DNA of 8,022 bases from SAR202 cluster bacterium (GTDB taxonomy: Bacteria > Chloroflexota > Dehalococcoidia > SAR202 > CAJWER01): NCBI GenBank assembly GCA_030740335.1, contig JASLXL010000053.1:1-8022 (forward strand), read 5' to 3'. The notes beneath the pieces are model-generated. The model made no database searches and had not been told where the DNA came from. It saw nothing but the letters and a program-made list of their open reading frames with translations. This document shows, in pieces, positions 1-8,022 of this stretch (position 1 is the first letter of the stretch; every line of letters begins with the position of its first letter). The position numbers and the translations under genes are program-made.

Positions 1-60
1 CAACCTGGGAGACGCCTCGACGCCGCCCTCACGACACTCTTGTTCTCGGGTCCAGTATGC

Positions 61-213
61 CTAAAGGATGTCCGATATGAGGATCCCGACGACGGTCAGC
101 ATGCCCAGTATTGGCACGATTGTGGCGCCCAGAAACATGTCCTCGGCTAGAAGGACCTGGAGCAGCACAGGCCTCTCAGCGTCAAGCTCCATCACATCGG
201 TCGGACGACGCAA
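61..213 (-). CDS. Small single-span membrane protein, unknown function
   Basis: This is an unrecognised 50-residue ORF, read on the - strand from a TTG at 213 to a TAG at 63-61. The start was chosen because GAGGTGAA lies just upstream (plus 221-226 reads CACCTC), 7 bases from the TTG; in-frame GTG 195 and ATG 192 have no such site. The first half is charged (MRRPTDVMELDAERP). The second half, from about residue 27, is a hydrophobic stretch (FLGATIVPILGMLTVVGILI) ending in SDIL, consistent with one membrane helix. Codon third positions are G/C-rich, as in the neighbouring genes. The overlapping + strand frame gives a polar, unconvincing protein. It resembles in size the small accessory subunits of respiratory complexes, but nothing sequence-specific supports that. 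It may be the first gene of a unit running off the left edge. Confidence 0.45.
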   Translation of the reverse strand: MRRPTDVMELDAERPVLLQVLLAEDMFLGATIVPILGMLTVVGILISDIL

Positions 214-261
214 CCAACTTCACCTCAACCCCCAGACCGATGGGGTGACTGGTCCGACCTT

Positions 262-289
262 TGAATATCGCGACTTCATTTCTTGTCGA
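262..289 (-). promoter_or_regulatory. Possible promoter with imperfect inverted repeat
   Basis: On the - strand, TCGACA (plus 284-289) and TATTCA (plus 262-267) are separated by 16 bases, a fair match to a housekeeping -35/-10 pair. They would start transcription about 40 bases before the small ORF beginning at 213. The same stretch carries an imperfect inverted repeat, ATATCGCGAC (265-274) against GTCGATAT (285-292), which could be an operator. The area is AT-rich relative to its surroundings. No start site is proven. Confidence 0.3.
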
Positions 290-429
290 TATGATTATCG
301 GCGTGGCGAAACTCCGGAACCGTTGGCTACGACTCCCGCTGGGGCGCATCCAAGCCGCCTGGGTCTAGGGAGATGGTCAAAACGATTGAGCCGTTGACCT
401 TTTGTCGCCCTCGCCGGGTCACCGCTGCC

Positions 430-476
430 CACTAAAACAAACAGGACCCCGGCTGCGTACGAGAGCTCCCGGGGGT
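430..476 (-). terminator. Probable intrinsic terminator of the regulator gene
   Basis: Read on the - strand, CCCCGG (474-469) can pair with CCGGGG (452-447) across a 16-base loop that itself contains the palindromes GAGCTC and CGTACG. The stem is followed by a T-rich run, TCCTGTTTGTTTTAG. It begins about 38 bases after the regulator stop codon, where a terminator is expected. The loop is longer than usual and the T run is interrupted, so strength is uncertain. The rest of 214-513 shows no gene. Confidence 0.5.
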
Positions 477-513
477 TACACGAGCGGTAAAGGGATAGCT
501 GCCGATCTGCAAG

Positions 514-2235
514 TCAACGGCGCGGGACCTGCGCGATCATGGTTCTGCGCAGGGCTTCAGTCTCCTGGCTGGGTTCTACCCCGATCTCATCTCTCAAAAT
601 CTTCCTGCAGGCCTCGTACTGACGCAACGCCTCGTCCCTCCGGCCTGCCTCCCACAGAAGTCCTACAAGCTGACGGTGGATTTCCTCCCGCCCTTGGTCA
701 ACGCCTAGGGCGGCGCGGCAGGAGTCAATGGCGCCCGCCACGTCACCGCTCTCGGCAAGGATGGATGCCATCTGCCTGCGCATATTGAGGTACACCTCTT
801 TCAGGTGAGTCCTTTCAAGCGAACACCAGTCGCTGTAACGCTCCTCTCCCATGTACTCCCCCCTGTACAGGGAAGCGACCCTCCTGTATTCGGTGAGAGC
901 CCTCTCCCCATCACCATCGACTGCAGTTTCCGCCGCCTGACTCACCCCTTTCGCGAATTGCTCAGCATCTACCCACACCCGATCTGACGGGTCCAGATGC
1001 ACCAGGTCGCCCTGGCTCAGAATAAAGGACGACACGCGGCCAGCCTCCAGCTCGGGCTCGAGGCTGCGACGCAGGGCGTGTAGAACGACGCGCAGGTTGC
1101 CACTGGATCGCCTCGGGTCGGACCCTGGCCACAGGAATTCCATCAGGGCCTGTCGAGGAAGAGGCCTTCCCCGATGAGCCACCAAGAGTTTCAACAATGT
1201 AAGAGCCCTCTTGAACCGCTGGAATCGAGCCATCGGAATGGGCTCCCCGTCCACGAACACCTCAAACGGTCCCAAACAGTTGATTTGGAGTCGAGAGGTC
1301 TCGCGGGGAAGCGTTTCCCTGTCGGGTCCCTGTCTCTTCTCACCGACGAGGTACGCCCATCGAAGGTACGCGCTAACCTGCACTGCGACCGGGAAAAGAA
1401 TCCGTACCGCCGAGGCAATGTCGTACTCACTCTGCTTGCTGGCGATGCACAGGGCTCCAAGAATGCGACTTTCGGCCACCAGAGGCGCACTCAGATACCA
1501 CCCAGGGATTCCGGACGGGCTCCCTCCTGGCCATGTTCCCGCCGCCAACAAGGGCACGCGAGAACGACGAATCAAGTCAGGAAACTCGTCTCCGATAGAG
1601 GACTGGCGGAACTCTCGCACGGCCTCAGTGGGGAGTCCTTGGTGCTCCATGAGGACGAGATCGTGGGATTCAGGGTCAAGCAAGAACAATTCTCCCGCAT
1701 CGGCAGAGGTGGTGCGGAGCAGCGTGCTCACGAAAACGGCCAGGGCCTCTTGAGAGCCAACGGACTCCGATATCACCGGATAGATCGCCTCTACCGTTTC
1801 CAGAACCAGGGAGCGCGAATCCGCTGCGGCGGCGGCAGTCGGACCGACGAAACAGATGTTTCCCCGCTCAAAGGTCGGGAGAATACACTTGAGGAAGAAA
1901 CAGTCCAGGTGGGTCTGTTTGCCTCCTGCCCACGGGGCCTGGAGCACCCGGTTATGGGCCCATGCTGAACCGGTTGTCCTTTGGATCAAGGGACAACCTT
2001 CTTCACAAGGACGACCGCTCCCCACGTCCACGGCGGGCATGATCTCGTAACACGGCCGCCCCAGAGCCTCGGACACTGGGATGCCCAGTCCTTGTTCCGC
2101 GTTGCGATTCCAGGCCACAATGCGGAGGTCTTCATCCACGGCGAAAACAGCACCCAGCGTGCGACCCACAAGTGTTTCCACTACCCCATGGCAGAACCTC
2201 CAGAACCGAGTCGCCGCAATCATATCACCCGCCAT
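514..2235 (-). CDS. PAS-GAF-winged helix-BTAD (SARP-like) transcriptional regulator
   Basis: A 573-residue cytoplasmic regulator, probably the activator of the divergent operon. Visible parts in order: a PAS-like domain at about 25-130 (GAVFAVDEDLRIVAWNRNAE); a GAF-like domain at about 145-295 (LSAPLVAESRILGALCIASK); an OmpR/PhoB-type winged helix at about 315-415 (CLGPFEVFVDGEPI, then LWPGSDPRRSSGNLRVVL); and a bacterial transcriptional activator (BTAD) helical domain at about 422-568, ending LRDEIGVEPSQETEAL, which is typical of SARP/AfsR-type proteins. The PAS domain is cysteine-rich: C62, C77 and C81 around CYEIM and PCEEGCP, then C112, C117 and C128. These could bind a metal or cluster or act as thiol switches; this is inference. 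The start chosen is ATG 2235, preceded by AAGGTG with about 9 bases of spacing; GTG at 2247 is the alternative. The family assignment is firm; the signal sensed is unknown. Confidence 0.9.
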   Translation of the reverse strand: MAGDMIAATRFWRFCHGVVETLVGRTLGAVFAVDEDLRIVAWNRNAEQGLGIPVSEALGRPCYEIMPAVDVGSGRPCEEGCPLIQRTTGSAWAHNRVLQAPWAGGKQTHLDCFFLKCILPTFERGNICFVGPTAAAAADSRSLVLETVEAIYPVISESVGSQEALAVFVSTLLRTTSADAGELFLLDPESHDLVLMEHQGLPTEAVREFRQSSIGDEFPDLIRRSRVPLLAAGTWPGGSPSGIPGWYLSAPLVAESRILGALCIASKQSEYDIASAVRILFPVAVQVSAYLRWAYLVGEKRQGPDRETLPRETSRLQINCLGPFEVFVDGEPIPMARFQRFKRALTLLKLLVAHRGRPLPRQALMEFLWPGSDPRRSSGNLRVVLHALRRSLEPELEAGRVSSFILSQGDLVHLDPSDRVWVDAEQFAKGVSQAAETAVDGDGERALTEYRRVASLYRGEYMGEERYSDWCSLERTHLKEVYLNMRRQMASILAESGDVAGAIDSCRAALGVDQGREEIHRQLVGLLWEAGRRDEALRQYEACRKILRDEIGVEPSQETEALRRTMIAQVPRR

Positions 2236-2280
2236 CGGAACAAGCACCTTCAGGGAAATTCCGTCCCCAACAGGCTTGTA

Positions 2281-2298
2281 TTAACGGCCATTTAACGC
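2281..2298. promoter_or_regulatory. Candidate SARP-type operator: two heptamers, 11-bp period
   Basis: TTAACGG (2281-2287) and TTAACGC (2292-2298) are direct repeats separated by 4 bases. Known SARP regulators bind heptameric direct repeats with 4-base spacers, the last repeat usually 8 bases upstream of the -10 box. Here TAAACG (2307-2312), a weak -10, begins exactly 8 bases after the second heptamer. The site lies in the 181-bp gap between the divergent BTAD regulator and the oxidase-like operon, so it could serve the operon, the regulator's own promoter, or both. Binding is inferred from geometry only. Confidence 0.45.
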
Positions 2299-2307
2299 TC
2301 CATTGCT

Positions 2308-2335
2308 AAACGTGCTCGCAGGTCCCCAAACGTGC
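2308..2335. repeat. Direct repeat AAACGTGC x2, 20-bp period
   Basis: AAACGTGC occurs at 2308-2315 and 2328-2335 in the same orientation, close to two helical turns apart, directly downstream of the TTAACGS heptamers. Both repeat types share the core AACG, giving four AACG copies between 2283 and 2332. This may be an extended or second operator in the divergent control region. It could also be chance, since the unit is only 8 bases. Confidence 0.35.
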
Positions 2336-2404
2336 GACCCGCAGCTCACTTCGGGAGGCTATCGGATTGTGAAGCAGGGAGGGAGCGGCACGGATGCGGG
2401 AAGG

Positions 2405-2410
2405 AAGGAG
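2405..2410 (+). promoter_or_regulatory. Strong Shine-Dalgarno site fixing the first operon start
   Basis: AAGGAG lies 6 bases before the GTG at 2417. This decides the start of the small membrane subunit: an in-frame ATG exists at 2303, but it has no ribosome site and would run through the candidate operator and promoter. Confidence 0.7.
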
Positions 2411-2416
2411 ACGATC

Positions 2417-2596
2417 GTGACACAACAAGAACGAGGTAGCACCGAGGAACTGGCGAGCGATGATGGCCGTATGCCGGTGATGCAGGAAATCTACGACAAC
2501 ATATGGTTCCTGTTCCTAGTCAGCGGCATCATCATCCTGGTTTTCTACATCATCTGGGGGCTCATCGATCTCCTGAATACGCCCACGCTGCCCTAA
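2417..2596 (+). CDS. Small single-span subunit of the heme-copper complex (CbaD/subunit IIa-like position)
   Basis: A 59-residue protein with a polar N-terminus (to about residue 20) followed by MQEIYDNIWF and one long hydrophobic helix (FLVSGIIILVFYIIWGLI) at about 30-51. It is the first gene of the operon, 13 bases before the CuA subunit gene. Thermus-type ba3 oxidases contain a very small one-helix third subunit (IIa, CbaD) that packs against the core. Size, topology and gene position suggest the same structural role here, but no diagnostic residues can be cited. Start is GTG with AAGGAG six bases upstream. Expected location is the cytoplasmic membrane. Confidence 0.7.
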   Translation: MTQQERGSTEELASDDGRMPVMQEIYDNIWFLFLVSGIIILVFYIIWGLIDLLNTPTLP

Positions 2597-2609
2597 TGGA
2601 GGAGCAACC

Positions 2610-3152
2610 ATGCCGGTAACAAGTCCCAGCGAACGGAACTGGTGGGACGTTCCGTTAGGCATACACGAGAAGATATGGCTCACCGTTGTCGTCCTGGTGG
2701 GCGTCGGCATGTTCGTGATGATGCCTGTGTGGCATGTCTTCGGCGACCAAAATCCCTCGACCACCAGCTATCGAGTCTCTCCTGACGGTTACTTCGAAAA
2801 GGTGACCCAGTGGGTAAAAGAGGCTGAGCGGGTGGAGCAGGGAGTGAAACCACCGGGACAGGATGCCTACCTAGTGGCATTGCGATACGCCTGGTTTCCC
2901 AACCCGCTGGTGCTGGAAACTGGAGTTCCCTACCGGATCCACCTGTCCAGCAAGGATGTCAACCACGGGTTTTCGTTGCACAAGGATGGGGAAGCGTCGC
3001 AGAAGGTGAACTTCCAGGTGGTGCCCGGGTACGAATACGTCCTCACCATGGAGTTCCCCGAGCCTGGTACCTACCACATCGTGTGCCAGGAGTACTGTGG
3101 GCTCGGGCACCAGAACATGGTAGGCAAGATCATCGTGGAAGAGGGTAGCTAA
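2610..3152 (+). CDS. Heme-copper oxidase/NO reductase subunit II with CuA site
   Basis: A 180-residue membrane-anchored electron-entry subunit that passes electrons from a one-electron donor to subunit I. One N-terminal anchor lies at about 21-44 (WLTVVVLVGVGMFVMMPVW), with the cupredoxin domain outside the membrane. The CuA ligand set is complete: H119 (in VNHGFSLHKDGE), C159 and C163 with E161 between them (CQEYCGLGH), H167 and M170. The single anchor and short length resemble ba3-type subunit II rather than the longer two-helix A-type. No fused cytochrome c domain follows, so the donor must be a separate protein, probably cytochrome c or a cupredoxin. The start ATG has GGAGGAG five bases upstream. 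Only one base separates its stop from the subunit I start, so the two are probably translationally coupled. Confidence 0.93.
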   Translation: MPVTSPSERNWWDVPLGIHEKIWLTVVVLVGVGMFVMMPVWHVFGDQNPSTTSYRVSPDGYFEKVTQWVKEAERVEQGVKPPGQDAYLVALRYAWFPNPLVLETGVPYRIHLSSKDVNHGFSLHKDGEASQKVNFQVVPGYEYVLTMEFPEPGTYHIVCQEYCGLGHQNMVGKIIVEEGS

Positions 3153-3153
3153 G

Positions 3154-4860
3154 ATGACCATAGCAGCGGTGCGCGCCAAATTCTGGACCTGCAATGTCAC
3201 CGGGTTGAAAGTACACGATTCGGCTGTGCCGCCTTTGATGGCCAACGCTGTGACCGGCGTGGTCTTTCTCCTGGTTGGCGGATTACTCTCCGTTCTCATC
3301 GGCCTGACTCGTTGGGAGGCCATCGACCTCCTGCCCGACAACTGGTACTACGTCGTGCTCACGCTCCACGCCTGGAGCATGCTGATCTTTTGGATAATAT
3401 TCATCGAAGTAGCAATCCTCTACTTTGCTTGCACCGCGGTTTTGAATGCCCGTCTCGTGAGTCCCAAGGCCGCGTGGCTGGCCTACGCCATGATGCTGGG
3501 TGGCGCTGCCCTGGCCGCGCTAACCGCATTACTTCAGGGAGATACCAGGGACCAGCCACTCTTGACCTCTTACGTGCCCCTGGACATCCATCCCCTTTTC
3601 TTTGTCGGAGCCATCATATTCGCGGTGGGAGCCTTGCTGGCCACGGGTATCTTTTTCGCCACTATCTTTATGGCGAAGAGGGAGCGAACATACGAGGGCT
3701 CGCTCCCCCTGGTCACCTTCGGTGCGGCCATCGCCGCCATTATCGCGGTCGAAAGCCTGCTGGGCGGAGCCATCGCGTATATCTGGCAGTTGCTGTGGGC
3801 CATCGGACTTGTGGACAGCATCGACGCCGAGATGTATCGAGTAGTGTGGTGGCTGCTGGGTCATGGCACTCAGCAAATCAATCTGGTCGCAATGGTGAGC
3901 GTTTGGTACCTGCTGGCACACCTATCCACAGGGGCCCAATCTGCCAGCGAAAAGGTGAGCCGCACCGGTTTCGTCCTCTACTTGCTCTTTATCAACCTGG
4001 GCGCGGCGCACCACCACCTATCGGACCCTGGCGTCACCAGTGCGTGGAGGATATGGAACGCCGGGTATGCAATGTATGGTGCGGCCATGGCCAGCTTGAT
4101 CCATGCCTTTGCCATCCCCGCAAGCATCGAACTGGCCCTCAGAAAACAAGGACACGGCGGTCTCTTCGGATGGCTGCGACACGCCCCATGGGGAAATCCA
4201 GCTTTTGCGGCGCTGGCCGTCTCTCTGCCCCTGTTTGGCATCTTGGGAGGCATCACCGGCATCACCTTCGGTACCGAGCAGCTCAACATGATGGTCCATA
4301 ACACGTTGGCCATCACCGGGCACTTCCACGGCACTGTAGTAGCCGGAACCACCATCGCATTTATGGGTGTAGCGTATGCAGTGATATGGCTGATCGGCCT
4401 GAGGGAGCTTCTCAGCGAGAGGCTGGCAACATTGCAGATTTACGTGTTCGGCGCGGGAATGGCCGTCTTCGTCGTGGCGATGATGTGGATGGGCTACTTT
4501 TTTGGCATCCCCAGGCGTCATCCGGATGTCTCCTCGCTCCCCATTATCCGGTCCCCTTCCCTGGAAACCATTGTGGGAGTCGCCGGTGTCGTCGCCATTC
4601 TTGGCGGCGTACTCTTCCTTGCGCTGGCCGTAGGCACGCTGCTATTGGGCACCCGGCGGGAGAAGGGTCCGGTCGTCGTTGCGGTCGGCGGTCCCAGCAT
4701 TGGTGGTCAGACGCCGGTTCCAACGGAGCACACGTCAGAGCATGGGAAAGCTCATGATTTGCGTGGCACGCTGACACTGTCTTTCGTTTTCTTGGCCGTC
4801 TTCATCGTCATCTACGCCACTCACTGGATCAACCTGTCTAGCCTCTGGTCCATCGGCTAG
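3154..4860 (+). CDS. B-family (ba3-like) heme-copper subunit I with active-site Tyr replaced by Gln; possible NO reductase
   Basis: A 568-residue membrane protein with roughly 13 helices, the catalytic subunit. It matches ba3-type subunit I: low-spin heme ligands H72 (LTLHAWSM) and H392, high-spin heme ligand H390 (VHNTLAITGHFHG), and CuB ligands H237 (WWLLGHGTQQIN) and H286/H287 (GAAHHHLSDPG). In ba3 oxidases helix VI reads H-x3-Y, and that Tyr crosslinks to the CuB His and is needed for O2 splitting. Here the His+4 residue is Gln241, with Gln240 before it. B-family-derived NO reductases that have lost this Tyr are known, so NO reduction is plausible, but a divergent oxygen reductase cannot be excluded. 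An extra hydrophobic helix closes the C-terminus (about 540-558) after a hydrophilic linker. Family is certain; substrate is not. Confidence 0.93.
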   Translation: MTIAAVRAKFWTCNVTGLKVHDSAVPPLMANAVTGVVFLLVGGLLSVLIGLTRWEAIDLLPDNWYYVVLTLHAWSMLIFWIIFIEVAILYFACTAVLNARLVSPKAAWLAYAMMLGGAALAALTALLQGDTRDQPLLTSYVPLDIHPLFFVGAIIFAVGALLATGIFFATIFMAKRERTYEGSLPLVTFGAAIAAIIAVESLLGGAIAYIWQLLWAIGLVDSIDAEMYRVVWWLLGHGTQQINLVAMVSVWYLLAHLSTGAQSASEKVSRTGFVLYLLFINLGAAHHHLSDPGVTSAWRIWNAGYAMYGAAMASLIHAFAIPASIELALRKQGHGGLFGWLRHAPWGNPAFAALAVSLPLFGILGGITGITFGTEQLNMMVHNTLAITGHFHGTVVAGTTIAFMGVAYAVIWLIGLRELLSERLATLQIYVFGAGMAVFVVAMMWMGYFFGIPRRHPDVSSLPIIRSPSLETIVGVAGVVAILGGVLFLALAVGTLLLGTRREKGPVVVAVGGPSIGGQTPVPTEHTSEHGKAHDLRGTLTLSFVFLAVFIVIYATHWINLSSLWSIG

Positions 4861-4864
4861 GTGG

Positions 4865-5437
4865 GTGGTAGCGAGGCTGGCGATCGCCGAACGGGTAGGC
4901 GATGTGCGAAGTGATCGGCGCGGGATCGGCAGGTTGCCGCTTTGGCCACTGGCCGTCCTCGGCGTAGTGGGGTTTCTCGTGGTATTGGCTGTGGCGGAGA
5001 CAGTGTGGATACCCAATTCGATGCCCCGGGAGTACGTTTCACAGACAAATCTGGTTGTCATACCACGCTCCGATGGATTGACGGCGGACTCAACGGAATG
5101 GACAGCCGAAGCTGTGGATTTCGCCAGCAGCGATGCGGTGCTGGCAAGCATTGTTGACATGCTGAACCTTCGAACCGAGTCCTCGGCGGAGTCTCTTGAT
5201 CCCAGCCAGTTGCGTCGCAGCCTGAATGTAAGCACTCGGTGCATCCAGATACCAGACAGCCAGGAAGGCACTATACGTGGAGTACTGATGTCGATCACAG
5301 TGCGCGGAGGAGACAACGCCAGACTTTCGGCGATTGCCAAGACGTGGGCTCAAGTTCTGACAGCGAACAACCTGTTGGAGCGACGAGATCATAGGTTCGA
5401 ACTTGGGACACCCTACCTACCGTGTGTGGAAGAATGA
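4865..5437 (+). CDS. Membrane-anchored Wzz/chain-length-determinant-like protein
   Basis: A 190-residue protein with a basic N-terminus, one membrane helix at about 25-48 (LAVLGVVGFLVVLAVAETVW) and an exported domain of about 140 residues. The pattern is that of the Wzz domain of polysaccharide co-polymerases: YVSQTNLVVIPRS strand, a segment with FASSDAVLASIVDMLNL, then LRRSLNVST, then GVLMSITVRGGDNARLSAIAKTW. The second, C-terminal membrane helix usual in Wzz proteins is absent. Two exported cysteines occur, C126 and C187. Its place between two heme-copper subunit genes (4 bases after the first, 7 before the second) is unexpected. It might be a scaffold or assembly subunit of the complex; this is inference. 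Start is uncertain: GTG 4865 is used, and in-frame GTG 4904 is an alternative. The fold call rests on pattern recognition only. Confidence 0.6.
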   Translation: MVARLAIAERVGDVRSDRRGIGRLPLWPLAVLGVVGFLVVLAVAETVWIPNSMPREYVSQTNLVVIPRSDGLTADSTEWTAEAVDFASSDAVLASIVDMLNLRTESSAESLDPSQLRRSLNVSTRCIQIPDSQEGTIRGVLMSITVRGGDNARLSAIAKTWAQVLTANNLLERRDHRFELGTPYLPCVEE

Positions 5438-5444
5438 AGCGGGC

Positions 5445-6872
5445 ATGAACGGTAAGCTTGTCGACCGGCTATGGTATCGACCCAACGGTGATACGGGTCT
5501 CGCTCGGTCCTTGGATGGTTCGGTCCGGGGTCTGGTCATCGGCTGGCTGCGGCTATCAGTCGCAGCGCTCATGGTAGCCGGACTATTCGCCATATTGGTG
5601 GCCTTTGCGCGTTCGCTGGCGGCGCAGGGTTTTGTCGGCGAGGAATACTTCAAGGTATCGCTCGTAGGCCACGTGACATTTTCTTTGACCGTGTGGTCAT
5701 TGAGCTTCGCCGGTGTACTATGGACGCTGGCGGCCGCTCGTACCAGCACTCCCTCTAGCCTGGCGGTTGGCTGGATAAGCCTGTGGCTTTCGTCTGCCGG
5801 TGCTGTCCTGATGGCAGGAGCGACGGCAGTTGGGTGGGGAAATCCCCTGCTGGTCGACTACGTCCCGACTCTGGAACATCCCGTCTTTGCGGTGGGGCTG
5901 GGGGTGTTTTTCCTGGGAACCGGCCTATGCGCCGTCAACTTCCTTGTGGCGTTGCGTCATCGCATAGTCTCCAGTCCGGTCGATGTTAAGGCTCTTGGAG
6001 CCGGAGCGGTAGCGTACCTTTCGGCCATGTTAGTGCTGGTTCTGGCGTTTGGAGTCGAAGGGGGGATGGACTGGCCTACGGCAACCTGGGGAACCGGTCA
6101 TCTCCTCCAGGTAACGAACTCGGCCACGATGGCTGCGGCGTGGATAATCCTGCTCGGCGGCGAACTGCCCAAGCGAGCGCGAACGGTCCTGTCGTGGGCC
6201 GTACTGTTCTACCTGCTACCGGTGATCAGTGTTCCGCTGTTTTACTTGCTTCCGGGCCCACTTCGGATGGGGCCGGTTGGGACGATAACCTGGACAGGCC
6301 TGACTGTCCCGACGTTCGGGGTATGGCTGGTCGTGGGGGTGGCAATGGTTCGACGACGGCGCTCACCGTCTCCTCGCCTGGTGCCGTTGTTCGTCTCGAT
6401 GCTCCTGTTCGCGGTCGGTGGTTACGCTGCTCTCATGGGCCTGGAAGGCGATTCCAAGATCACTGCTCACTACCACGGCACGGTAGGAGCGGTTACGGTC
6501 GCACTTATGGGAATCGCGTACTGCCTGCTCCCCGATCTCAAGATCAGACTATGGATGCCCAGTCTGGCGCGCTTTCAACCTCTATTGTACGGAGGTGGGC
6601 TCCTTCTCCTCATCGCTGGGCTGTTTTGGGCCAGCAACTATGGAGGTCAGCGCAAGGCTTTTGAGGCGTTCGCGCAAAACTCCAGCATTCTCGGGCCGAT
6701 GGGCTTGTTCGGTTTGGGCGCCCTGCTTACGGTAGTGGGGGGCTTGACATTCGTCCTGGGAGTAGGGGTTTCGCTGCTCGCAAAGGGTTTAACGCCGCTG
6801 CAGGCGCCTTCGAGCGATTCTGACACGCTGCAAGAAGACCGGCAGCGAATTCGGAGCGAGCAGTTGCGTTGA
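5445..6872 (+). CDS. Divergent heme-copper subunit I homologue lacking the helix VII His-His pair
   Basis: A 475-residue protein with about 12 membrane helices, clearly related to the subunit I encoded upstream: LLVDYVPTLEHPVFAVG parallels LLTSYVPLDIHPLFFVG, and WGTGHLLQVTN parallels WLLGHGTQQIN. Retained: H76 on helix II (LVGHVTFS), H219 on helix VI, and H342/H344 (ITAHYHGTVG), so two hemes could still bind. Missing: the helix VII His-His pair, where the segment reads VLFYLLPVISVPLFY, so a normal CuB is not possible. There is no Tyr at H219+4 (Val), but Q222 and N225 match Q240 and N243 of the upstream protein. It may be an altered catalytic subunit, a heme-only electron-transfer subunit, or a relative of little-studied NOR-like groups. 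The start ATG 5445 follows the preceding stop by 7 bases; TTG 5403 and GTG 5424 are alternatives. Confidence 0.85.
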   Translation: MNGKLVDRLWYRPNGDTGLARSLDGSVRGLVIGWLRLSVAALMVAGLFAILVAFARSLAAQGFVGEEYFKVSLVGHVTFSLTVWSLSFAGVLWTLAAARTSTPSSLAVGWISLWLSSAGAVLMAGATAVGWGNPLLVDYVPTLEHPVFAVGLGVFFLGTGLCAVNFLVALRHRIVSSPVDVKALGAGAVAYLSAMLVLVLAFGVEGGMDWPTATWGTGHLLQVTNSATMAAAWIILLGGELPKRARTVLSWAVLFYLLPVISVPLFYLLPGPLRMGPVGTITWTGLTVPTFGVWLVVGVAMVRRRRSPSPRLVPLFVSMLLFAVGGYAALMGLEGDSKITAHYHGTVGAVTVALMGIAYCLLPDLKIRLWMPSLARFQPLLYGGGLLLLIAGLFWASNYGGQRKAFEAFAQNSSILGPMGLFGLGALLTVVGGLTFVLGVGVSLLAKGLTPLQAPSSDSDTLQEDRQRIRSEQLR

Positions 6873-6883
6873 GTGATGTTGGG

Positions 6884-7717
6884 ATGGCACACCGCCGTCA
6901 TGCCCGGAACCGATCCCTGATGGCACTGGTTGGGCTGGCGATGGCGGCGAGCATCTTCCTCGGCGGATGTTCAGCCGTCAGAGCAGGGACTCCGGCTCCC
7001 AATTTCGAGTTGACAGACCAACGCGGACAGGTCGTGAGCCTCGATCGCCTTCGCGGCAAGCCGATTCTTATCACCTTCCTATTTACTCATTGCCCGGACA
7101 CGTGTCCACTCTACTTGTCCAGGGTCCAACAGGCATTGGCTGCTCTGGAGGTCGCCGATGCGGAGATCTCCGTGGTTGCCGTGACGGTCGACCCCGAGCG
7201 CGATACCGTGGAGCGCCTCCAACGCTATGCAGGTTCCTGGCCATCGAGTTGGTATTTCCTTACAGGCCGACCAACAGCGGTTGCGCGGGTGTTGAGCGAC
7301 TATGAGGTCTCCGCATGGAGCGAGGTATTCGGTGGACTCGACCACTCCCCCAGTGGCTACGATGTTATCCACACCGCCAAGATGATGGTGCTCGATGAGA
7401 ACGGCAACATCGCGACTGCGCTGTACGGGAATTGGAGCGCAGAACAGCTCGAAGATGTCGTTGGAAAGGTACTCGCAGGCGAAGTGGTCGCCCAGGGCAC
7501 GGCAGTACTCCATCCTTTCGCCCGTCTCCTGCAGAGTTGTGGGGAATTCGCATCCTCGCACCCGTGGACGTTCTCAGGCCTGATTATCTTGATAATGTTT
7601 CCTGGCTTGATCTTGCCTGTATTCCTTCTTCGAACATTCCTGGCGACTGGCGAGAAGCAGCAGCAGCCGAAAACCGATGTAGACCGTCAGCGAAAATGGG
7701 ACACCATTGAGGGCTAG
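6884..7717 (+). CDS. Sco1/SenC-type copper chaperone, lipoprotein with extra C-terminal helix
   Basis: A 277-residue exported thioredoxin-fold protein that delivers copper to, or reduces, the CuA site of subunit II. The N-terminus is basic (HRRHARNRS) and is followed by a hydrophobic segment and the lipobox LGGC, with C29 as the lipidated residue. The Sco copper site is complete: C70 and C74 in HCPDTCP and H163 in VIHTAKMMVLDENG. APNFELTDQRG and VTVDPERDT are further family marks. After the domain (to about 200) comes an unusual tail with a second hydrophobic helix at about 231-250 (FSGLIILIMFPGLILPVFLL) and a short charged end, so the protein could be held at both ends. It closes the operon, 11 bases after the preceding gene. 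Start: ATG 6884 chosen; TTG 6869 (overlapping the previous stop) and ATG 6920 are possible. Confidence 0.93.
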   Translation: MAHRRHARNRSLMALVGLAMAASIFLGGCSAVRAGTPAPNFELTDQRGQVVSLDRLRGKPILITFLFTHCPDTCPLYLSRVQQALAALEVADAEISVVAVTVDPERDTVERLQRYAGSWPSSWYFLTGRPTAVARVLSDYEVSAWSEVFGGLDHSPSGYDVIHTAKMMVLDENGNIATALYGNWSAEQLEDVVGKVLAGEVVAQGTAVLHPFARLLQSCGEFASSHPWTFSGLIILIMFPGLILPVFLLRTFLATGEKQQQPKTDVDRQRKWDTIEG

Positions 7718-7742
7718 AGAACCCGAGAACGGCGTTTGTGAG

Positions 7743-7863
7743 GCTCGGTCAACAGTTCACCTACAACGCAACGGGTGACCGGGTACAGCCCTTCCTCCAG
7801 AAATATTGAAGTCTCTGGGTGAAGGAGGGTCGAACGATACCTGGAACACCTTATTCCGGTGTT
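7743..7863 (+). other. Run of possible RNA hairpins after the operon
   Basis: Three inverted repeats follow the last operon gene. CGGTCA (7746-7751) pairs with TGACCG (7776-7781), extendable to nine pairs with two G-U; an alternative stem, TCACC/GGTGA (7757-7761 with 7774-7778), competes with it. Next, CCTTC and TCCAGA (7790-7801) pair with TCTGGG and GAAGG (7814-7825) with one mismatch and a 12-base loop. Last, AACACC (7845-7850) pairs with GGTGTT (7858-7863). None is followed by a U run, so these are not classic intrinsic terminators; they could be a structured 3' end or a small RNA. No gene is seen in 7718-8022, and the remainder to 8022 shows nothing convincing. Confidence 0.35.
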
Positions 7864-8022
7864 GATGGCTGCCTGAGAATGCTGGGTGCACAGAACACAA
7901 CTCGCCCCTTATCCATCGACTGGACCTAGGCTAGTCGCGACGCTGGGCAACAAGCGAGGTCGTATTTCCAACAACATCCGCTGATTTGATAGGCTTATAG
8001 TCGCTCCTCGAAATGGGAGGAC

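Follow-up and report, generated by a model that had tools for sequence, protein, structure and literature searches.

The gene at 5445..6872 on the forward strand of an 8,022-nucleotide stretch of DNA from a SAR202 cluster bacterium (Chloroflexota; contig JASLXL010000053.1, positions 1 to 8,022, called the window below) encodes a homologue of heme-copper oxidase subunit I without the CuB histidine pair. This copper-free heme-copper-oxidase homologue (CF-HCO) represents a family found in two genomic settings, eNOR operons and clusters encoding undecaheme cytochromes. Our favoured explanation, to which we give an even chance, is that CF-HCO is a redox accessory of the membrane that lacks copper, probably carries two b-type hemes and serves assembly or electron supply, and not a second eNOR core. 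The gene and the residues discussed are:

5445..6872, forward strand: CF-HCO, the protein under study, 475 aa from the ATG at 5445.
5403, forward strand: alternative TTG start of CF-HCO, giving 489 aa; residue numbers below follow this 489-aa form.
Key residues of CF-HCO (489-aa numbering): H90, H233, Q236, H356, H358, R417 and K418.

Ligand pattern of CF-HCO

A predicted model, profiles and Foldseek all gave CF-HCO the subunit I fold of heme-copper oxidases. The best solved relative by profile was Thermus ba3 subunit I (1ehk, 1xme, 4g7q; E 3.6e-21), with a Foldseek TMq of 0.73 and about 21% identity; the profile of eNOR subunit I matched with E 4.3e-44 (21% identity). In profile alignments to ba3 and eNOR, H90 and H358 corresponded to ligands of the low-spin heme and H356 to that of the high-spin heme, the assignment of ligands to hemes being general knowledge of the superfamily. 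H233 lay on helix VI, and F280/Y281 occupied the position of the CuB His pair. CF-HCO thus carries the three histidines expected, from its sequence, to serve two hemes (helix II and the HxH of helix X), and of the CuB site it has the helix VI His without the helix VII pair. The full CuB ligand set and the active-site Tyr of the A, B and C families of oxygen reductases are absent as well. The second Gln of eNOR, Q241, corresponds to V237 of CF-HCO, and most family rows have F, V, L or I at this place.

The loss is shared by the whole family. H90, H356 and H358 were invariant in 162 family rows (154 distinct) and H233 and Q236 were present in 160, a conservation that is partly filtered, because 79 of the rows were picked by [AG]HYH (locus rows without it being left out before the counts) and an AHYH pattern was used in the genome scan. 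The 83 unfiltered rows came from a protein search with 86 matches, after exclusion of P0020 (family annotation AFOR) and of P0085 and P0086 (HH-bearing relatives); H90, H356 and H358 were present in all 83, and H233 and Q236 in 81. The two exceptions for H233 (P0036 and P0046) are sisters on the tree. At the helix VII pair, position 280 was His in none of the 162 rows and position 281 in 11. R417 and K418, the heme-propionate Arg/Lys pair, were found in all 161 rows with a residue there.

These alignments bear out the preliminary description of this DNA, which had reported a missing CuB His-His pair beside intact His on helices II, VI and X and had proposed room for two hemes, the ligands for which appear to be retained. 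It had also singled out H219, Q222, N225 and E205. The first two (H233 and Q236 here) are the residues kept in 160 rows; E205 and N225 are not conserved and were rejected as residues of a conserved site.

The comparison with eNOR gave a selective pattern. Of 96 aligned eNOR positions that are at least 95% conserved, 60 family rows retained 16 at a frequency of 90% or more and 35 at a frequency below 10%. The survivors (eNOR numbering) include H72, H390, H392, R454, R53, H237 and Q240, and the losses H286, H287, Q241, E85, H317, H382 and N383; in the heme-propionate pair R454 is kept and R455 is replaced by Lys. Such a pattern would fit a protein that holds two hemes and no longer performs binuclear chemistry, in which H233 could ligate the second heme.

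Distribution, phylogeny and selection

Gene neighbourhoods were compared in 81 loci, the window plus the best 80 of 169 relatives from the genome scan. These 80 fall into ten NCBI-named phyla, archaea included: Pseudomonadota (53), Chloroflexota (5), Rokuibacteriota (4), Nitrospirota (4), Methanobacteriota (2), Hydrothermarchaeota (2), Acidobacteriota (2), Bacteroidota (2), Myxococcota (1) and Methylomirabilota (1), with four lacking a named phylum. On a tree of 93 rows the family formed one clade (56 rows, SH-aLRT 100), separate from eNOR (23 rows, SH-aLRT 100) and from Tyr-bearing relatives; the tree was built by a quick method, with some long branches, uneven letter make-up and one cbb3 row dropped for length. 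The median dN/dS was 0.13 over 337 pairs (0.04-0.27 in the 25 closest pairs), and the family is under purifying selection. The simplest reading of a shared loss, one clade and low dN/dS is that the CuB pair was lost once, long ago, and that the remainder of the protein has been preserved since. As the loss is family-wide in many bacteria and some archaea, CF-HCO has the look of an ancient accessory protein under maintenance, and not of a gene copy in decay.

CF-HCO in eNOR operons

The partner of CF-HCO in the window is the following gene:

3154..4860, forward strand: eNOR-type subunit I, 568 aa, with H72, H237-G-T-Q240-Q241, H286-H287, H390 and H392.

The closest solved structure to this partner is the Thermus ba3 oxidase. 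Where oxygen reductases have their active-site Tyr, the partner has Gln. As a Gln replacing the active-site Tyr is the mark of eNOR in the sections of PMC8756737 drawn on here, the partner can be assigned to eNOR on the terms of those sections. The signature H-x-x-Q-Q-[IV]-N was present in 118 of the best 120 of 5805 relatives of the partner, the remaining two being short.

A subunit I or II gene was located on the same DNA piece as CF-HCO in 53 of the 81 loci, from nine NCBI-named phyla, and a further 12 loci had the typical neighbours but neither subunit. A pair of subunit-I homologues of unequal state had been pointed out in the operon of the window; the binuclear site is complete in one and incomplete in the other, and the arrangement proved to be conserved across distant lineages. 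The Gln-Gln signature was present in 46 of 50 subunit-I rows beside CF-HCO; in L032, L063 and L069 the partner is Tyr-bearing, and the remaining row comes from L074, which has an additional oxidase-like gene. In Chloroflexi and Rokubacteria the CF-HCO gene follows subunit I closely. In the 51 loci with subunit I, profiles detected SCO1 in 47, CtaB in 44, cytochrome b in 41 and a 175-aa protein in 39.

CF-HCO is optional in eNOR operons. In Chloroflexota, eNOR was detected in 29 of 400 genomes and CF-HCO in four of the 29 (scoring covered, for the most part, just the top three candidates of each genome). CF-HCO was absent from all 17 eNOR regions that had 6 kb of flank on either side and had been chosen as lacking it genome-wide. 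Four other groups showed it in 27 of 60 eNOR regions, many of them cut by contig ends. Uncut regions (6 kb on both sides) with and without CF-HCO numbered 10 and 6 in the class of G006 (Ca. Ferrigenium, Gallionellaceae), 2 and 6 in Bacteroidota, 0 and 1 in Nitrospirota, and 0 and 1 in the phylum of G014. No replacement gene was evident when 13 regions with CF-HCO and 18 without it were compared, 12 of the 18 extending less than 6 kb beyond eNOR on one or both sides.

Some of these operons have peculiarities of their own. In the Acidobacteria, L063 (about 6702-11347) and L032 (about 1776-6686) encode three consecutive subunit-I homologues: a Tyr-bearing one, a second with the first helix X His only (AHYV or SHYD) and a CF-HCO member. 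In eNOR subunit I of two Bacteroidota (L042, 8314-9981, and L061, 2952-4619) GHFK stands for GHFH, Lys replacing the second helix X His. Two cytochrome b proteins of L017 (7415-9358 and 11914-13518) have either 2Fe-2S plus flavin domains or 4Fe-4S plus FlpD domains, and a cytochrome b protein with such domains also occurs in the eNOR operon of the archaeal L014 (7879-9771), which hints that NAD(P)H or ferredoxin may be connected with these operons. The end of the L014 protein resembles, by eye, the separate 175-aa protein. Near the L003 operon a NirS-like cytochrome d1 protein is encoded (7070-8728), consistent with a denitrification setting.

CF-HCO in undecaheme-cytochrome clusters

In 13 of the 81 loci (12 named as Pseudomonadota, one unnamed) CF-HCO was found in clusters resembling the Uet cluster described below. 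The CF-HCO gene was downstream of ResB and CcsA in all 13, and 12 encoded a multiheme cytochrome of one family, in which 11 CxxCH motifs were counted in L057, L070, L075 and L077. Tri- and tetraheme cytochromes and NHL proteins are encoded upstream in L075, and CcmF, a redoxin, CcmH and CycH downstream in L057 (Dechloromonas hankyongensis). A TPR protein was downstream of CF-HCO or fused to it in most of these loci (TPR confirmed with Pfam in L055, L057, L077 and L079). H233 and Q236 were retained in all 13 rows; position 281, Tyr in 53 of 65 other locus rows, was most often H (3), A (3) or Q (2), with Tyr not among the top three. eNOR was found in six of the 13 genomes and not in seven, the absence being weak evidence since most of the 13 are metagenome-assembled genomes.

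A proposed accessory role

In the explanation that we favour, an ancestral heme-copper oxidase homologue would have lost the CuB His pair once, as placed on the tree, and retained both heme sites. With the pair gone, CF-HCO should be incapable of the O2 or NO reactions that heme-copper centres normally carry out. Two b-type hemes would instead exchange electrons either with quinones of the membrane pool or with a membrane cytochrome nearby. CF-HCO would serve proteins on the outer face of the membrane, which in the window would be SCO1 and eNOR on its CuA side; in other loci, cytochrome c maturation proteins and multiheme cytochromes would take their place.

The selective retention of residues, the single clade, the low dN/dS and the presence, in both settings, of extracytoplasmic carriers with their maturation genes count in favour of this explanation. 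Taken together, the fusions, the co-divergence, the optional presence and the second setting favour an accessory redox protein, linked to maturation or electron supply at the outer face, over an obligate second eNOR core. CF-HCO was fused to SCO1 in P0011 and P0013, which fall among Chloroflexi rows on the tree, and in the Bacteroidota L042 and L061; to a UbiA prenyltransferase in P0022; and to TPR in P0048, P0083 and L077. No fusion to eNOR catalytic subunits was among the CF-HCO fusions met. In 12 dereplicated four-gene loci, CF-HCO pairwise identity correlated with that of SCO1 at 0.81 and of subunit I at 0.61 (partial correlations 0.68 and 0.18; subunits I and II, 0.93 in plain correlation). 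SCO1 was near eNOR in 4 of 4 Chloroflexota loci with CF-HCO and enough flank, vs. 0 of 20 without it.

A number of observations weigh against this explanation. The co-divergence test comprised 12 loci and 64 non-independent pairs, and over all 46 loci seven family pairs correlated at 0.92-0.97, which does not discriminate between them. In the class of G006, SCO1 was near eNOR in 13 of 13 regions with CF-HCO and in 16 of 18 without it (6 of 6 of the latter with 6 kb on both sides); as SCO1 is there regardless of CF-HCO, it is not a special partner everywhere. L069 (Chloroflexota, Tyr-bearing partner) has CF-HCO and no SCO1 match, and CtaB was near 5 of 20 eNOR genes without CF-HCO. Any enzyme with CuA or several hemes would be expected to have maturation genes nearby. 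A thioredoxin-fold gene was directly downstream in only four, perhaps five, of the 13 Uet-like loci, and three of the 81 loci (L005, L008 and L068) lacked the usual neighbours of either setting. The predicted fold, ligand pattern, clade, selection, settings and fusions were observed, and from these we infer heme binding, heme type, redox role, the quinone link and the partners.

SCO1 as a general marker of CF-HCO was rejected, as the Chloroflexota contrast fails in the class of G006; the pooled Fisher p for SCO1 vs. CF-HCO (8.9e-5) mixes groups and leans on Chloroflexota. As to the loci without usual neighbours, the L005 piece has 11.5 kb and the L068 piece 10.7 kb; eNOR is elsewhere in the L068 genome, and none was found in the L005 genome.

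A bolder version, which we put forward tentatively and regard as rather unlikely, makes CF-HCO a third functional branch of the heme-copper superfamily, distinct from oxidases and from NO reductases: a quinol-linked di-heme b reductase that would keep extracytoplasmic cofactors or thiols reduced during maturation. Its targets would be Cu(I) for SCO1 and CuA, and ferrous heme or CxxCH thiols for multiheme cytochromes. Such a role would explain why CF-HCO stands beside both eNOR and undecaheme cytochromes.

Alternative explanations

CF-HCO might be a structural, electron-transferring second core of eNOR, passing electrons from quinol or another donor to CuA or the catalytic core. The retained heme sites, the shared DNA piece with subunit I or II in 53 loci (three of them with a Tyr-bearing partner) and the gene order in Chloroflexi and Rokubacteria speak for this, and we consider it unlikely. 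Against it, CF-HCO was present in only 4 of 29 Chloroflexota eNOR genomes, in none of the 17 Chloroflexota regions selected for lacking it, and was missing from 6 of 16 uncut regions of the G006 class with no replacement evident. No eNOR was found in 7 of 13 Uet-like genomes, and the partial correlation with subunit I was 0.18 once SCO1 was taken into account. The hetero-complex with the catalytic core that had been suggested for the window is not supported in a fixed form: many eNOR operons do without CF-HCO, it is fused to SCO1, UbiA and TPR, and its divergence in the 12 loci tracks SCO1 more than subunit I.

We see a small chance that CF-HCO is an enzyme with a rebuilt distal site that acts on NO or another small molecule, a reading that takes in the different metal site also suggested for the window. 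The site would consist of a heme accompanied by H233 and Q236, joined mostly by Y281 in eNOR operons, and might or might not hold a metal. The near-complete retention of H233 and Q236 despite the loss of the CuB pair, and the presence of Y281 in most rows outside the Uet-like ones, would suit such a site. There is, however, no evident third protein ligand for a metal, Y281 is not a leading residue in Uet-like rows, and H233 could serve the second heme. There is a slim chance that CF-HCO does no redox cycling itself and acts as an assembly scaffold or heme chaperone, to which maturation factors as fusion partners and neighbours might point. Against this, the strict conservation of the heme sites and of R417/K418 suggests stably bound hemes.

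That CF-HCO is a decayed copy or an assembly error (its catalytic ligands are gone, and median pairwise identity in 46 loci is 35% vs. 52.5% for subunit I) can be dismissed, and a local mutation or sequencing error was rejected with it, since orthologues share the loss family-wide, in a single clade with dN/dS 0.13 and with long intact frames in many genomes.

Gene layout of the window

The other genes of the window are:

514..2247, reverse strand: PAS-GAF-BTAD transcriptional regulator, divergent from the operon.
2426..2596, forward strand: small single-helix protein (PVMQEIYDNIWFLF...), start codon uncertain.
2610..3152, forward strand: subunit II, a cupredoxin, CuA-type motif CQEYCGLGHQNM read from sequence.
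4865..5437, forward strand: 190-aa single-helix protein, predicted fold Wzc/KpsE/Wzz-like.
6884..7717 (from ATG), forward strand: SCO1/SenC protein, directly downstream of CF-HCO, frame open from TTG 6869.

The small protein at 2426..2596 is perhaps a IIa-like subunit, and a closely similar peptide was found upstream of subunit II in L001, L002, L065 and L074. The 4865..5437 protein has a relative in the same place in four further Chloroflexi loci. From its position, the PAS-GAF-BTAD protein is a possible regulator of the operon. No sigma-70-like promoter was detected in a scan of the window; terminator-like sites numbered 8, vs. 4.1 in shuffles, none assignable to a gene boundary. Undecaheme and tri-/tetraheme cytochromes and NHL proteins were not among the window proteins scanned (8 kb covered).

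Comparison with known systems

The Uet cluster of Tenderiales and some Gallionella, as far as the cited part of PMC10734462 describes it, comprises undecaheme and tri-/tetraheme cytochromes and NHL proteins. The 13 Uet-like loci resemble this description in gene content; unlike the clusters with CF-HCO, that part of PMC10734462 names no oxidase-like component.

No NCBIfam model matched the six family members tested, Pfam recognised only COX1 in the oxidase-like part, and no description of such a protein was found in the literature searched, an earlier mention being possible. Some members are named cbb3-type cytochrome c oxidase subunit I and may be miscounted as terminal oxidases. The family also offers a handle on the assembly or electron supply of eNOR and undecaheme-cytochrome systems.

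CF-HCO shares with eNOR subunit I the fold, the His of helices II, VI and X, Q240 and R53. Unlike eNOR, it has no H286/H287, no Gln at the Tyr site and no E85, H317 or H382-N383, and it forms a separate clade. The profile alignment also shows that the CuB pair and active-site Tyr of Thermus thermophilus ba3, which we take to be H282/H283 and Tyr 237, are replaced in CF-HCO. In cNOR (NorB, 4xyd), a His pair and a Glu bind a non-heme iron. The heme-copper superfamily is defined by its heme-copper centre, and a widespread clade without the copper pair that keeps both heme places suggests reuse of this scaffold beyond O2 and NO reduction.
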